Assembly: GCA_905182715.1 (NCBI GenBank)
Contig: CAJJCP010000013.1
Span: 1-64,000, forward strand
Length of the DNA stretch: 64,000 nucleotides
Source of the DNA: an uncultured Candidatus Poseidoniales archaeon
GTDB lineage: Archaea; Thermoplasmatota; Poseidoniia; Poseidoniales; Poseidoniaceae
Reading direction: 5' to 3'
Shown here: piece by piece, positions 49,625 through 55,112 of the stretch
How positions within the stretch are numbered: position 1 is the first letter of the stretch
How the letters are laid out: every line of letters starts with the position of its first letter
Made by a program: the position numbers and the translations under genes
The notes under the pieces: model-generated
Seen by the model: the letters and a program-made list of their open reading frames with translations, nothing else
Told to the model about the DNA's origin: nothing
The model's database searches: none

Positions 49625-51118
49625 TTAAGAAAAGTGATGGAAGGAAGCACGGACAACATCGATAATCGCATCGATTTCAGCCGAGGTAATTCCGAAATGA
49701 GGCGTGAAACGAAGAGCGTTTGTTCCTCCGTGTATGACACCGAGCCCATGTTTACGGCACCATGTCTCAACAGCATCGAATCCAACGACTGGGAATTGGC
49801 TTGGTTCGAGTTCTGCACTCAATAATAATCCAGTGCCTTGAACTTGAGTGATGATACCTGGCATCTCGAGAGCTAAGAGTTCCAATTTTTCTACAAACTC
49901 TGCGCCTCTGTCACGAATGTTTGCACGTAATTCTGGAGTGATTTGGTCGAGCACTGCACATGCAGTTTCGAGCGCACGAGGATTCGTAGTCATGGTATTT
50001 CCGTAAATCCCAACAACATAGTTTTCTGATGCCCTTTGATTGAGACCAAGTACTGATAATGGGTATTGGCCAGCATTCAGTGCTTTTGACCATGTTTCTA
50101 AATCAGGACATACGGCATCTTGGAAACCATCATAGTCGATAATTGAAAGACAGCCTTGGCCTCGAATTCCTGCTTGAATAGAATCGACAAGTAGCATCGA
50201 GCCATGTTCAAGAGTGAGGCGGCGAGCAGCATCGTAGAAATCACGCTCAACACATGAACCTGGGTTTCCTTCTCCTTGAACTGGTTCTATTGCCATGAGT
50301 TCGATAAAGTATCCATCAGATTCAGCTTTTGCATATGCAGCCTCAAGAGCGGCAACATTGTTCGCTGGAACGAGAATCAAATTGTCGCGATTCCTGAATG
50401 TTGCGAGGTTTTTATCGTATGCAGTCATACATGAATGCGAAATTTGTGCAGGGCGGTCAGTACGTCCATGGAATGCCTTTTCAACAGCCATGAGTTTGAT
50501 TTCTTTGCCTTCGTGCGGGCCACCAGGGCCAGTCATTTTACGTGCATTAACGTCAGCAATCCGTAGGCTAACCGTAACTGATTCCGATCCACTGTTCATG
50601 CAGATAAAGCGAGTAAAAGGGCATGAGCCTCGAGTATGCCCGAGTTCGCTTTGCAAGCGCGTTGCGAGACGCTTATGGCTGTAAGAAGGAGTCATGACGT
50701 TCGCCATTACCCAATTCTGCGACATAGAGGAAATAATCGTGCTCGGTCCGTGGCCACTACCAAGCATCCCGTAGCCCCCGTTGTCGTGAAGAACTGCACC
50801 ATGAGCCGTAATAATCCAAGGTCCACGGGCAGCAAGGGCCACATAAGGGTTAACTGTGGCTGGGGCATAAAAATTGATGTAGTCCGATTGCAGTTCTTTA
50901 ACCAAGTCTGATTCCGAAAGATTCAACAAATCATTACCGAATTCATCTTTGAGGTGGTTTCTTCGGGCCACTGCTTCTGTAATAGCCATCCCCAAAGTCG
51001 AGTCGCTGGAAAGAAAACTTTGAATCACATCATCCGTTAAACCAACGGTATCTCGATGACCTGAGAGGTTTCGTAAATTTTGAAGATGGGCGAAAGCATC
51101 TACAGCATGTTGAGTCAT
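49625..51118 (-). CDS. Class III PLP aminotransferase (lysine 6-aminotransferase-like)
   Basis: A 497-residue fold-type I aminotransferase. FICMNSGSESVTVSLRIADVNARK, AFHGRT, the PLP Asp in LLVDSIQAGIRGQG and the Schiff-base Lys in TWSKALNAGQYPLS are visible. The overall length and the order of blocks recall lysine-epsilon-aminotransferases, but substrate cannot be settled from sequence; ornithine or another omega-amino donor is possible. Start ATG 51118 is preferred to GTG 51136. Divergent from the RHH gene across an AT-rich regulatory region. Confidence 0.78.
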   Translation of the reverse strand: MTQHAVDAFAHLQNLRNLSGHRDTVGLTDDVIQSFLSSDSTLGMAITEAVARRNHLKDEFGNDLLNLSESDLVKELQSDYINFYAPATVNPYVALAARGPWIITAHGAVLHDNGGYGMLGSGHGPSTIISSMSQNWVMANVMTPSYSHKRLATRLQSELGHTRGSCPFTRFICMNSGSESVTVSLRIADVNARKMTGPGGPHEGKEIKLMAVEKAFHGRTDRPAQISHSCMTAYDKNLATFRNRDNLILVPANNVAALEAAYAKAESDGYFIELMAIEPVQGEGNPGSCVERDFYDAARRLTLEHGSMLLVDSIQAGIRGQGCLSIIDYDGFQDAVCPDLETWSKALNAGQYPLSVLGLNQRASENYVVGIYGNTMTTNPRALETACAVLDQITPELRANIRDRGAEFVEKLELLALEMPGIITQVQGTGLLLSAELEPSQFPVVGFDAVETWCRKHGLGVIHGGTNALRFTPHFGITSAEIDAIIDVVRASFHHFS

Positions 51119-51204
51119 CAGTTTATTGCCACCCACGGGGTTCTTTGAACGTTCGCTTCAATTTTACTGAGAATCTGCTGGAAGATGAGTGTTTTTTGCA
51201 TTAG

Positions 51205-51240
51205 AGTAATACTATAGTAATACTCAGCGAATACTTATAT
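51205..51240 (+). promoter_or_regulatory. Tandem operator and TATA box of RHH-folE promoter
   Basis: AGTAATACT occurs at 51205-51213 and again at 51216-51224; a weaker copy, GCGAATACT, follows at 51227-51235. Spacing is exactly 11 bases. Each full copy is the odd palindrome AGTA-N-TACT. A TATA-like TTATAT (51235-51240) lies 23-28 bases before the RHH start codon, implying a leaderless mRNA. Binding by the RHH protein is inference. Confidence 0.5.
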
Positions 51241-51262
51241 GCTCTGGGCCGAACCATCAATC

Positions 51263-51424
51263 ATGCCGAAAATCTCTTTGGACATGCCAGCGGAATTGGT
51301 TGAAGACCTCCGCAAACATGTCGGAGACCAACATAAATTTGTGAGTTTGGCGGATGCGGTACGTACTGCATGCCGTAAACTCCTCGATCAGTTGGATGAA
51401 ATTGATGCTCGGCATGGAAGGTAG
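51263..51424 (+). CDS. Ribbon-helix-helix (CopG/NikR-type) regulator
   Basis: A 53-residue protein whose pattern (PKISLDMPAELVEDLRKHVGD...LADAVRTACRKLLDQLDE) fits the RHH fold: a short N-terminal strand that reads DNA bases, then two helices. It is likely a DNA-binding dimer. It heads folE and the queuosine-type genes (nine bases to folE), so it probably controls that cluster. No extra metal domain like NikR is present. The start follows closely after the TATA box, giving a leaderless transcript. Confidence 0.75.
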   Translation: MPKISLDMPAELVEDLRKHVGDQHKFVSLADAVRTACRKLLDQLDEIDARHGR

Positions 51425-51432
51425 TGAATCAT

Positions 51433-52002
51433 ATGGTGACAACAGAAGAAGCAGAAAACGCAGTGAAAATCTTGCTCGAGTACCTTGAGGGCGATGCTCA
51501 ACGTGAAGGATTGCAAAAGACTCCTCGACGTGTCATTGAATCATGGGATGAAATATTTTCCGGGTATACGACCGATACTGAAGAACTTCTCCAATCGACA
51601 TTCAATGGCGAAGGATATGATGGCATAGTTCTCCTCCGCGATATTGAATTTCATTCGACATGTGAACATCACTTACAACCATTTAGTGGTCGTGCACATA
51701 TTGCATACATCCCCGTAGATCGTATTGTTGGAATCAGTAAATTAGCACGTATTGTTGACGCTCACGCTCATCGATTACAGAATCAAGAACGCATTACCAA
51801 AGGCATCGCAGATGACCTGGAAAAGCACCTCAATCCGCTTGGTGCAGCAGTCATCCTTGAGGCGTCGCATGGCTGTATGCGTTGCCGTGGTGTACGAAAA
51901 CAAAACTCAGTCATGACGACATCGGCAATGCGCGGCGTGTTTTTCGATAAGGCAGAACCTCGCCAAGAACTCATGCAGCTCATACAATCAAGACCACTCT
52001 GA
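51433..52002 (+). CDS. folE: GTP cyclohydrolase I (FolE type)
   Basis: A 189-residue enzyme. Zinc ligands are in FHSTCEHHLQPF and CMRCRG; VGISKLARIVDAHAHRLQNQERIT is the family core block. It turns GTP into 7,8-dihydroneopterin triphosphate, the entry to pterins and to 7-deazaguanines. Many archaea use a different enzyme (MptA), so the bacterial-type FolE together with QueD, QueE and QueC here points to preQ0/archaeosine synthesis. ATG 51433 is preferred to GTG 51424. Directly after the RHH gene. Confidence 0.92.
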   Translation: MVTTEEAENAVKILLEYLEGDAQREGLQKTPRRVIESWDEIFSGYTTDTEELLQSTFNGEGYDGIVLLRDIEFHSTCEHHLQPFSGRAHIAYIPVDRIVGISKLARIVDAHAHRLQNQERITKGIADDLEKHLNPLGAAVILEASHGCMRCRGVRKQNSVMTTSAMRGVFFDKAEPRQELMQLIQSRPL

Positions 52003-52078
52003 GGCGTTAATATGACCGAGCATATCTTGTGAACTCTCGGGTAAGCATACCGTTGATTCGGCTTCGGACCTCGGAACC

Positions 52079-52674
52079 GTGTACAAGATTGTCGAAATAT
52101 TTCATTCCGTCCAAGGAGAGGGCGTACATGCAGGAATACCTCATGTATTCATCCGCTTCGGGAAAATGTAACCTCCAATGCGAATGGTGTGATACCGACT
52201 TCGAAACATTTGATGAAATGGCTGCAGTCGACATACTCGGTGAGGTAATGAAGTACCCTTCGAAAAGAATTATCTTTCACTGGTGGTGAGCCGATGCTGA
52301 ATGATTTATGGCCACTCCATCGTTTGTTGAAGTCCAGAGGATACCAGTTATCCTGTGAATCAAATGGGACCATCGAGATTCCAGAAGATTTACTCGATTG
52401 GATCTGTATCTCCCCTAAAGACCAGATGTACCCTCAAGTGAAAATTCGACAACGTACGGGGGATGAACTCAAATGCGTTTATGTTGGTCAAGATTTAACA
52501 CTCTATGATGGATTAAAAGATGGCTTCAACCACCACTTCTTGCAACCTTGTTATATCGATTCTGAAAGTGTAGAATGGAATGGTAAGAATTTTGCAATGA
52601 CTGAAGCCGTTGTGAAACAATCACCGCCTTGGCGTTTGAGTCTCCAAACGCATAAGTGGATGGGGGTTGACTGA
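52079..52674 (+). CDS. queE: 7-carboxy-7-deazaguanine synthase, frameshifted
   Basis: Radical SAM enzyme making CDG from carboxytetrahydropterin. The pieces KIVEIFHSVQGEGVHAGIP, HVFIRFGK, CNLQCEWCDTDFE and FTGGEPML lie in shifting frames; single-base removals at 52160-52166 (GGGAAAA) and 52275-52277 (TTT) give a continuous ~198-residue protein. The SAM motif here is Cx2C preceded by a more distant site; the usual first cysteine of CxxxCxxC-like QueE loops (GxNC) needs the corrected frame to judge. A GTG at 52079 fits the QueE start, but an ATG at 52012 after GAGGCG could be the true one with a third one-base slip near 52028-52030. Confidence 0.85.
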
Positions 52675-53826
52675 ATGAAACGAGCAGTCATGGCACTCTC
52701 TGGTGGAATGGATTCGACCGCACTCTTGATGCGGCTTTTAGCCGATCAATACAAAGTAGATTGTATCTCGTACAATTACGGTCAAAAGCACAGTGTGGAG
52801 TTGGAACGAGCGCAATTGAACATCAAATATCTTGCATCAAAAGGATTCGAAATTGAACATAAAATAATCGACCTTTCGAGTGCAATGGGTGCGTTTGAAA
52901 GTTCACTTCTCAGAGGAGGTGAAGACATTCCTGAAGGCCATTATGAGGCTGAACAAATGAAGTCAACCGTGGTGCCGAATCGGAATGCTATATTCGCCTC
53001 AATAATGTATGGATATGCTCTCTCAGTTTCGAATCGTGAGAGTTGCAAAGTTGAAATTGCTCTCGGTGTTCATTCCGGAGACCATGAAATCTATCCGGAT
53101 TGCCGACCTGAATTTTATCAGGCAATCGAACACGCTTTTGCCATTGGAAATTGGGACAGTGAAAACATCTCATTCACCCTACCCTATCTCGACGGTGATA
53201 AGGCATCCATACTCGAAGATGCCCAAAAGGCCATTCTTCAGCTTGACCTTGAATTCAACACGGTGTTTGCGAATACAAATACCTCCTATAATCCTGATGA
53301 AGAAGGGCGAAGTTCTGGAATGAGTGGCGCCGATATTGAGCGTATTCTTGCCTTCCACAGCCTTGGACTCACCGACCCCGTCGATTACCAAACCACTTGG
53401 GAAGAAGTGCTTAGAAACGCCCTCGAGGTTGAAAAATCGCATAAGGAAGAAGATTACCGTCAACGTCTCACTGAAGAACAATACTTAGTCACACGTCAAA
53501 GTGCTACAGAACGCGCCTTTACGGGGATCTATTGGGATGAAAAAAGAGATGGCGATTACTTTTGCATCTGTTGTGGTCATCTTTTGTTTACTTCTTCTAT
53601 GAAATTCGATTCAGGTTGCGGTTGGCCATCATTCCACACGGAGCATCCCGATGCAGGAATCAAGCACATCGAGGATTACACGCATGGAATGCAAAGAGTT
53701 GAAGTTCAATGTTCAAAGTGTGACGCACATTTAGGACATATCTTCGAAGACGGGCCACGAGCATTCGGTGGGCAAAGGTATTGCATCAATTCAGCTTCAC
53801 TGGATTTTGAGGAGATGGAAGAATGA
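52675..53826 (+). CDS. QueC-like preQ0 synthase fused to MsrB
   Basis: 383 residues. The N-terminal ~260 residues are QueC: PP-loop LSGGMDSTALL at residues ~8-18, SYNYGQKHSVEL, VVPNRNAIFASI and LGLTDPVDYQTTWEE. The region that normally carries four zinc cysteines reads TSYNPDEEGRSSGMSGADIER, with Ser, Ser, Ser and Asp in their places. Residues ~275-380 form a complete MsrB: zinc pairs CICC and CSKC, SGCGWPSF, and the catalytic Cys in RYCINSASL near residue 370. QueC converts CDG to preQ0; MsrB reduces methionine-R-sulfoxide. The fusion and cysteine loss are both unusual. ATG overlaps TGA of queE. Confidence 0.88.
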   Translation: MKRAVMALSGGMDSTALLMRLLADQYKVDCISYNYGQKHSVELERAQLNIKYLASKGFEIEHKIIDLSSAMGAFESSLLRGGEDIPEGHYEAEQMKSTVVPNRNAIFASIMYGYALSVSNRESCKVEIALGVHSGDHEIYPDCRPEFYQAIEHAFAIGNWDSENISFTLPYLDGDKASILEDAQKAILQLDLEFNTVFANTNTSYNPDEEGRSSGMSGADIERILAFHSLGLTDPVDYQTTWEEVLRNALEVEKSHKEEDYRQRLTEEQYLVTRQSATERAFTGIYWDEKRDGDYFCICCGHLLFTSSMKFDSGCGWPSFHTEHPDAGIKHIEDYTHGMQRVEVQCSKCDAHLGHIFEDGPRAFGGQRYCINSASLDFEEMEE

Positions 53827-54272
53827 CAACACGTATACGAAGATTTGTAGAGACTGACACAGGGCACAGAGTTCCGAATCATAAAAGTAAATGCCGACAC
53901 ATGCATGGTCACCGTTACCGTTTCGAAGCAGAAATTGAAGGCGATACTGTCCAAGAATCAGGCGTCAGTGAAGAAGGAATGTTGATGGATTTTTCAGATG
54001 TGAGTGCGATACTGATGGAACATGTTCATGACATCGTAGATCACGCATTTGTGGTATATGAAGGCGATTCTGAAGCAAGAAACGCTTGTGCTGCAATGGG
54101 CGACGGGCATCGGACAGTTGTAGTACCGTTCATCCCCACTGCAGAGAATCTCGCCAAATGGGCTTTTGAGCAGGTTCAACCACATATCACGACTGCTTAT
54201 GGAAATCGATTGAAACTCGTTGCTATGCATGTGCGAGAAACTCCGAAGAGTACGGCATCATGGATTCCATGA
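53823..54272 (+). CDS. queD: 6-carboxytetrahydropterin synthase
   Basis: A 149-residue tunnelling-fold enzyme. His in DTGHRVPNH, CRHMHGHRY (catalytic Cys and two zinc His) and FIPTAENLAKWAF are the family blocks. It converts dihydroneopterin triphosphate to 6-carboxy-tetrahydropterin, feeding QueE. It overlaps the queC-msrB stop by four bases and ends the preQ0 operon; it abuts the convergent methyltransferase gene. Confidence 0.93.
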   Translation: MTTRIRRFVETDTGHRVPNHKSKCRHMHGHRYRFEAEIEGDTVQESGVSEEGMLMDFSDVSAILMEHVHDIVDHAFVVYEGDSEARNACAAMGDGHRTVVVPFIPTAENLAKWAFEQVQPHITTAYGNRLKLVAMHVRETPKSTASWIP

Positions 54273-55112
54273 TTACTCTTCTTCTGTCGGCGTAATTTTA
54301 CGTCGTCGTTGGCTTTTCCATTCAGCATTTCCTGCGACGTATTGGAGAGCAGTCGTCGCATCGAGGATACCACCTATGAGGCGTGTTGCCTCATCATCCG
54401 TAGGCATGGAACGCATTAAATTCCGCCTTAAATTCTGTGAAAAACTTTCTCTTCGGTCGTCATTACCCGGCAAGACTTGGCCAAATTCCAAAATCCCTTG
54501 GTTGAGAATACGCTTCAGAGTGGGATTCATGCTTCTTTCGAGTGGTACGATATTGGGGATGCCGGGATTCGAACCCTGTGATGAACGTACAGTTGAGCGA
54601 TGGAGTTCATAGACACAAGCATTGACTGCATGTGATAAATTCGCAATTGGATAGCCTTCCCATGTGGGCAAGGTCACCAAGAAATCACAGAGTGCAAGGG
54701 ATTCTGTAGACAGCCCCATTCCCTCTTCTCCAAATACAAGCGATACTGATTCGGTAAAAGAGTCCAATCGTTCCGCCATTTCCCACGTATAGGTGAAGTG
54801 ACGAAAGGTCGTCTTTGCACCGATTTCACGCTTACCTGAAGTTCCGATTGTCAAACTGCAATCGGCTGTTGCAGCTTCGAGTGTGTCGAATACTTGACAA
54901 GTATCAAGGACGCGTCCAGCATGCTTTGCTCGATTCCTTGCTTCAATATCATCGGGTGAGCAAGTGGGCGATACAAGGCGAAGAGAATCAAATCCATAAT
55001 TCAGCATCGTTCTACACACTGCCCCAAGGTTTCCAGGGTGAGATGCTCCCACCAATACGATATGCAGGGAATAGTTTCGGCGAGGAAGTTGGAGAGTTTG
55101 TCGATCGCCCAT
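54273..55112 (-). CDS. trmJ: SPOUT RNA methyltransferase, TrmJ-like
   Basis: About 279 residues. HIVLVGASHPGNLGAVCRTMLNYG near the start, SLVFGEEGMGLSTE and LPTWEGYPIANLSHAVNACVYEL form the knotted SAM site of the SpoU/TrmH family; the arrangement fits TrmJ, which 2'-O-methylates position 32 of tRNAs. A helical C-terminal extension (~75 residues) follows. ATG 55112 is chosen because GGGAGG is nine bases upstream; ATG 55121 would sit directly on it. Confidence 0.85.
   Translation of the reverse strand: MGDRQTLQLPRRNYSLHIVLVGASHPGNLGAVCRTMLNYGFDSLRLVSPTCSPDDIEARNRAKHAGRVLDTCQVFDTLEAATADCSLTIGTSGKREIGAKTTFRHFTYTWEMAERLDSFTESVSLVFGEEGMGLSTESLALCDFLVTLPTWEGYPIANLSHAVNACVYELHRSTVRSSQGSNPGIPNIVPLERSMNPTLKRILNQGILEFGQVLPGNDDRRESFSQNLRRNLMRSMPTDDEATRLIGGILDATTALQYVAGNAEWKSQRRRKITPTEEE

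Follow-up and report, generated by a model that had tools for sequence, protein, structure and literature searches.

RHH repressors of bacteria and phages such as CopG, Arc and MetJ are short dimers that bind tandem sub-sites and repress their own genes, MetJ requiring a corepressor. Bacterial queuosine genes are controlled by preQ1 riboswitches, which are RNA-based and located in the 5′ leader. In archaeal viruses, RHH proteins bind strong distal sites and oligomerise from these onto degenerate proximal sites at BRE/TATA, and with BRE/TATA occupied the initiation complex cannot assemble; the gene affected is often the protein's own (PMC5569661). F55 of SSV1 binds tandem repeats, those at its own promoter included (PMC5569661). 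Most binding of haloarchaeal CdrS lies 41–110 nt upstream of start sites, and the protein promotes ftsZ gene expression (PMC8406309, PMC7439475).

The locus described here is the promoter and operon of a small RHH gene in the window, i.e. the whole stretch of 64,000 nucleotides of Poseidoniales DNA that was analysed. An earlier note had reported two perfect odd palindromes and a weaker third copy, on an 11-bp pitch and running into TTATAT and a start codon, and this arrangement was confirmed in the sequence at the coordinates below.

51205..51213, no strand: candidate operator copy 1, AGTAATACT, a perfect odd palindrome (sequence, shuffles, relatives)
51216..51224, no strand: candidate operator copy 2, AGTAATACT, starting 11 bp after the start of copy 1 (same basis as copy 1)
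51227..51235, no strand: candidate operator copy 3, GCGAATACT, with left half-site GCGA, overlapping both BRE and the first T of TTATAT (sequence, relatives)
51234..51241, + strand: TATA box (CTTATATG), from conserved columns −33 to −24, centre about −25.5 from ATG
51263..51424, + strand: gene of the 53-aa RHH protein MPKISLDMP..., heading the operon (homologues in relatives, profile comparisons)
51433..52002, + strand: folE, GTP cyclohydrolase I, start at 51433 or at 51424/51436 (family searches)
52029..52674, + strand: queE, here in pieces through single-base insertions, intact in relatives (position, relatives)
52675..53826, + strand: queC fused to msrB (SelR domain) (family searches)
53823..54272, + strand: queD, 6-carboxytetrahydropterin synthase (family searches)

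The exact sequence AGTANTACT occurs four times in the 64 kb, two of these in the array, and a pattern scan found the two-copy array at a single position in the 1.78-Mb assembly. Further two-copy matches with up to 2 mismatches showed no excess over a reversed-pattern control in the whole assembly. The best pair in the window scored 26.6 bits (at 51205) and the next non-overlapping pair 6.8 bits, and the best triple reached 34.0 vs 1.5 for the next. The upstream region in the window scores 25/27 consensus bases, a value reached by none of 20,000 dinucleotide shuffles.

TTATAT was located at 51235–51240, and the 53-aa protein begins with the ATG at 51263. The TATA centre is about 25.5 bp upstream of the first base of this ATG, a spacing that fits a leaderless archaeal promoter, as had been proposed. 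The in-frame ATG at 51239 was rejected as the start of the RHH gene: its position falls within the TATA element, and the protein is conserved only from 51263 onwards. Neither a riboswitch nor any other Rfam family was matched at E≤1 in 50900–54400, and this search thus gave no sign of control of the operon by a preQ1 riboswitch.

The array was compared in the upstream DNA of 83 loci from two families of Poseidoniales, Candidatus Poseidoniaceae and Thalassarchaeaceae (Marine Group II, a group that includes the MG-II chromosome CM001443), and in an extended set of 103 loci, which adds 20 more and includes a third family of the class. A triple on the 11-bp pitch that matches the consensus at 20 or more of 27 bases was present in all 83 loci vs 0.12% of shuffles; the spacing of the copies is thus conserved in relatives, and the RHH gene was directly downstream in all loci, which ties the conservation of the repeat to this gene. 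Neither of the two outcomes that the earlier note had named as refuting its reading was therefore seen. At pitches of 9, 10, 12, 13 and 15 the same score was reached in at most 2.4% of the loci. The 39% of loci reaching it at pitch 14 are taken to reflect an echo of the internal similarity of the repeat at a 3-bp offset, since spacings of 3, 14 and 25 form minor peaks. Pair spacings peaked at 11 (125), 22 (59) and 33 (11) in the 83 loci, with 168/82/13 for the same spacings across the 103.

The array started exactly at −58 in 56/83 loci, and column information was near 2 bits in the three site cores and for the most part under 0.3 bits in the flanking DNA. The centre base of sites 1 and 2 was A or T in nearly 50:50 proportion, and this strand symmetry is as expected for a symmetric dimer site. 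Most loci carried three copies (range about two to five), and in L070, L077, L188 and L040 the copies continued beyond the TATA element. The third family of the class retained the array. It was weakest in genus g14 (L194), and genus g16 (L186, L190, L191) had a weakened array of two diverged copies around TATA; in both genera the 11-bp two-copy pattern was still legible by eye.

In copy 3 of the window 6/9 positions match, with a perfect right half that runs into TTATAT. Across the 83 loci, the left half of this copy was AGTA or GGTA in 36 and GCGA or ACGA in 29, the latter being mirrored in the right half of site 1 in 9/83. GCGA/ACGA recurs as an alternative half-site and does not reflect simple decay. 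The third copy is therefore weaker by match, as the earlier note had it, but not by random decay. Copy 3 overlaps BRE/TATA, so that some of its conservation must be due to the core promoter.

The RHH protein was present in 84 of 100 related genomes, covering 12/12 sampled genera, and a profile search of 146 genomes of the class recovered it in 110, with no match outside the class among the genomes listed for the phylum sample. A Pfam search of the 53-aa protein of the window matched no family, and this protein alone gave 0.012 against the CdrS model. Several family members matched the same model at E = 2.9e-5 to 1.4e-4, thereby providing a profile match to a recognised RHH family, and hhalign against the second, CdrS-like RHH of Poseidoniales gave E = 2.6e-5 with a probability of 75%; on these two comparisons the gene at 51263 stands as an RHH gene. 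It is not CdrS (NF058555), because the scores were far below the cut-off (at most 30 bits in 31 genomes vs 100) and the operon is different, with folE, queE and queC, not ftsZ2, in the loci of sufficient length. The second RHH of Poseidoniales (MVSLRIPEDHLLE...) is longer and has a C-terminal domain (L115, L116, L119, L122, L124, L126).

On the basis of 106 aligned rows (103 distinct loci), the candidate DNA-contact residues K3, S5 and D7 were invariant, as was Cys37 (all 106/106). The AlphaFold monomer had residues 1–7 extended and helices at 8–20 and 23–50, with a pLDDT of 82. Sequence and fold searches of the PDB with the RHH protein returned nothing significant; the fold search, made with the monomer model, is uninformative because the RHH fold arises by dimerisation, its sheet forming only in the dimer.

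The order RHH-folE-queE-queC was kept in nearly all sufficiently long loci of both families and of the third family, which upholds the claimed link between the RHH gene and the preQ0 cluster. Exceptions, judged by match only, were L016, L039 and L046, where later genes were unmatched or displaced. A membrane-protein gene of about 250 codons lies between the RHH gene and folE in L178, L180 and L181, a lineage of the third family; by eye, its product resembles NfeD-like proteins. The broken gene in the window is presumably queE, by its position and a CxxxCxWC-like motif, and a Pfam search of its C-terminal piece gave no match. In comparison with congeners at least two insertions lie inside the gene and probably a third near its start, and the break is probably a sequencing or assembly error. 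The product of queC is fused in frame with MsrB/SelR (methionine-R-sulfoxide reductase), and a downstream MsrB match was found in many relatives too.

Among the checked genomes that have no RHH gene, only three had FolE: G071 and G091, both with folE at a contig edge, and G100, which has a divergent, unrelated folE on a high-GC contig without the RHH gene. Because genomes without the RHH gene are mostly without folE, the preQ0 cluster seems to be absent as a whole, through loss or through omission in assembly. Some genomes without the cluster retain the archaeosine transglycosylase gene. G072 and G073 (genus g8), for instance, are devoid of the RHH gene, folE and full-length queC and retain the archaeosine tRNA-guanine transglycosylase, as if preQ0 were salvaged or the cluster were missing from the assemblies.

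Pattern scans for a second two-copy array in relatives gave counts equal to the reversed-pattern control, and 19 of the 20 sampled two-copy matches outside the RHH promoter were inside long ORFs. From these scans, the RHH protein looks like a one-promoter regulator, and it may have single-site targets elsewhere. The promoters of tgt (archaeosine TGT) were examined as co-regulated targets and carried no array. The one sampled match outside long ORFs, an isolated intergenic near-match with a further AATACT downstream, was seen before another gene at L325:1512–1550 (G016), which is a possible extra target in this one genome.

A tandem one-turn repeat stands class-wide at the RHH promoter, and the RHH protein therefore very probably controls its own operon. 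Binding of the array by the encoded protein is, in our judgement, highly likely, and cooperative binding of neighbouring dimers is strongly suggested by the pitch. Given binding, repression is judged likely with moderate confidence, because the array overlaps BRE/TATA and the archaeal RHH repressors studied act in this way; as in archaeal RHH autorepressors, the candidate sites lie at the protein's own promoter and overlap BRE/TATA. Taken together, the array probably serves as operator for a dedicated RHH autoregulator, which would repress its own preQ0 operon from BRE/TATA. The proposed operon is headed by its regulator (RHH-folE-queE-queC/msrB-queD). Each odd palindrome would be contacted by one RHH dimer via its two-stranded sheet, and the 11-bp pitch would set adjacent dimers on the same side of the helix, allowing them to bind cooperatively. 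Starting at the strong copies upstream, they would then extend onto the copy overlapping BRE/TATA. TBP/TFB would thereby be kept off, with less transcription of both the regulator and preQ0 synthesis, and the likely outcome would be an operon held at a steady low level (homeostasis). That this class-wide, single-promoter repressor family also senses the state of deazaguanine synthesis, or redox, is a distinctly unlikely extension; redox relief could be compatible with the invariant Cys37 and the queC-msrB fusion, and alternatively preQ0 or a pterin intermediate could be the ligand. If true, this would be the first dedicated archaeal archaeosine/preQ0 transcription factor with ligand or redox input.

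The region is A+T-rich, as a chance or low-complexity repeat would be, but the probability of such an origin is practically nil, as it is excluded by the shuffle tests and by conservation in the relatives. A shared control region governing also the divergent class-III aminotransferase, as the earlier note had considered, is most improbable. The aminotransferase gene is divergent across the same intergenic region in the window and in many congeners, but the upstream neighbour varies, and the array persists next to an ABC permease gene as well as next to a co-directional gene for glyoxalase; in the window it is about 86–116 bp upstream of the likely start codon of the aminotransferase (51119). 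Since the array is kept while the upstream gene changes, it belongs to the RHH/preQ0 operon and not to the aminotransferase. Very improbable, too, is a repeat bound by another, global factor, or representing a strong core-promoter architecture, with the RHH gene as a mere neighbour. Binding by the RHH protein is what we infer and copy 3 does overlap core promoter elements, but the array was confined to the RHH promoter in the scans, it accompanies the RHH gene in no fewer than three different upstream settings, and palindromes at a one-turn spacing, as it has, are typical of RHH operators.

The sign of regulation is a separate matter, as the RHH protein could use the same sites as an activator, with copies 1 and 2 recruiting TFB/TBP in positive autoregulation of the preQ0 operon. 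These copies occupy positions −58 to −39 immediately before BRE, which is where archaeal activators bind. The alternative is also kept because the CdrS sites of haloarchaea are mostly upstream of promoters, and in Haloferax knock-down of CdrS lowers ftsZ1 (PMC8406309). Activation is nevertheless unlikely: the gene-proximal copy overlaps BRE/TATA in nearly all loci, and copies lie past or around TATA in L070, L077, L188, L040 and L191, both of which favour occlusion. Autorepression from BRE/TATA is thus the reading retained here.

Repressor control had been described as not known for archaeal deazaguanine genes, and in the open-access literature, outside which most subscription journals lie, no dedicated regulator of archaeal preQ0/archaeosine synthesis was found. 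Nothing relevant was found there on queuosine with RHH, Poseidoniales with archaeosine, or Marine Group II promoters. The mechanism is of a known kind, but neither this RHH family nor archaeal deazaguanine synthesis as its target seems to have been described before. Protein, candidate operator and target operon are all defined for an archaeal group that is uncultured and among the most abundant in the ocean. The locus also suggests that the oligomerising RHH mode of archaeal viruses may serve a cellular biosynthetic operon.

Of the known systems, the preQ1 riboswitch is similarly placed at deazaguanine synthesis genes, whereas the operon here has a leaderless promoter and no Rfam match. CopG, Arc and MetJ are alike in their tandem sub-sites and in the autorepression proposed here, but the half-site is different and there was no PDB sequence match. 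CdrS of haloarchaea (NCBIfam NF058555) is likewise a small cellular archaeal RHH protein and, though weakly, the nearest named model; it differs in heading the ftsZ2 operon and in its 18 binding sites in Haloferax (PMC7439475, PMC8406309), scores at most 30 bits with the family described here against a cut-off of 100, and has a separate, longer counterpart in Poseidoniales. SvtR and AvtR of archaeal rod-shaped and filamentous viruses are RHH transcription regulators as well. SvtR is a repressor of its own promoter, for which polymerisation that starts at strong distal sites and extends over BRE/TATA has been proposed, much as for the present array, while both proteins are viral, with imperfect inverted-repeat consensus sequences and other targets (PMC5569661). 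F55 of Sulfolobus spindle-shaped virus 1 is also a small archaeal RHH repressor, and its tandem repeats (consensus ATAGATAGAGT) lie in or beside promoters, its own among them, and are alike in layout and different in sequence (PMC5569661). It acts as a viral lysogeny switch at several target promoters, whereas the protein described here is cellular, with one promoter and a biosynthetic operon as its proposed target.
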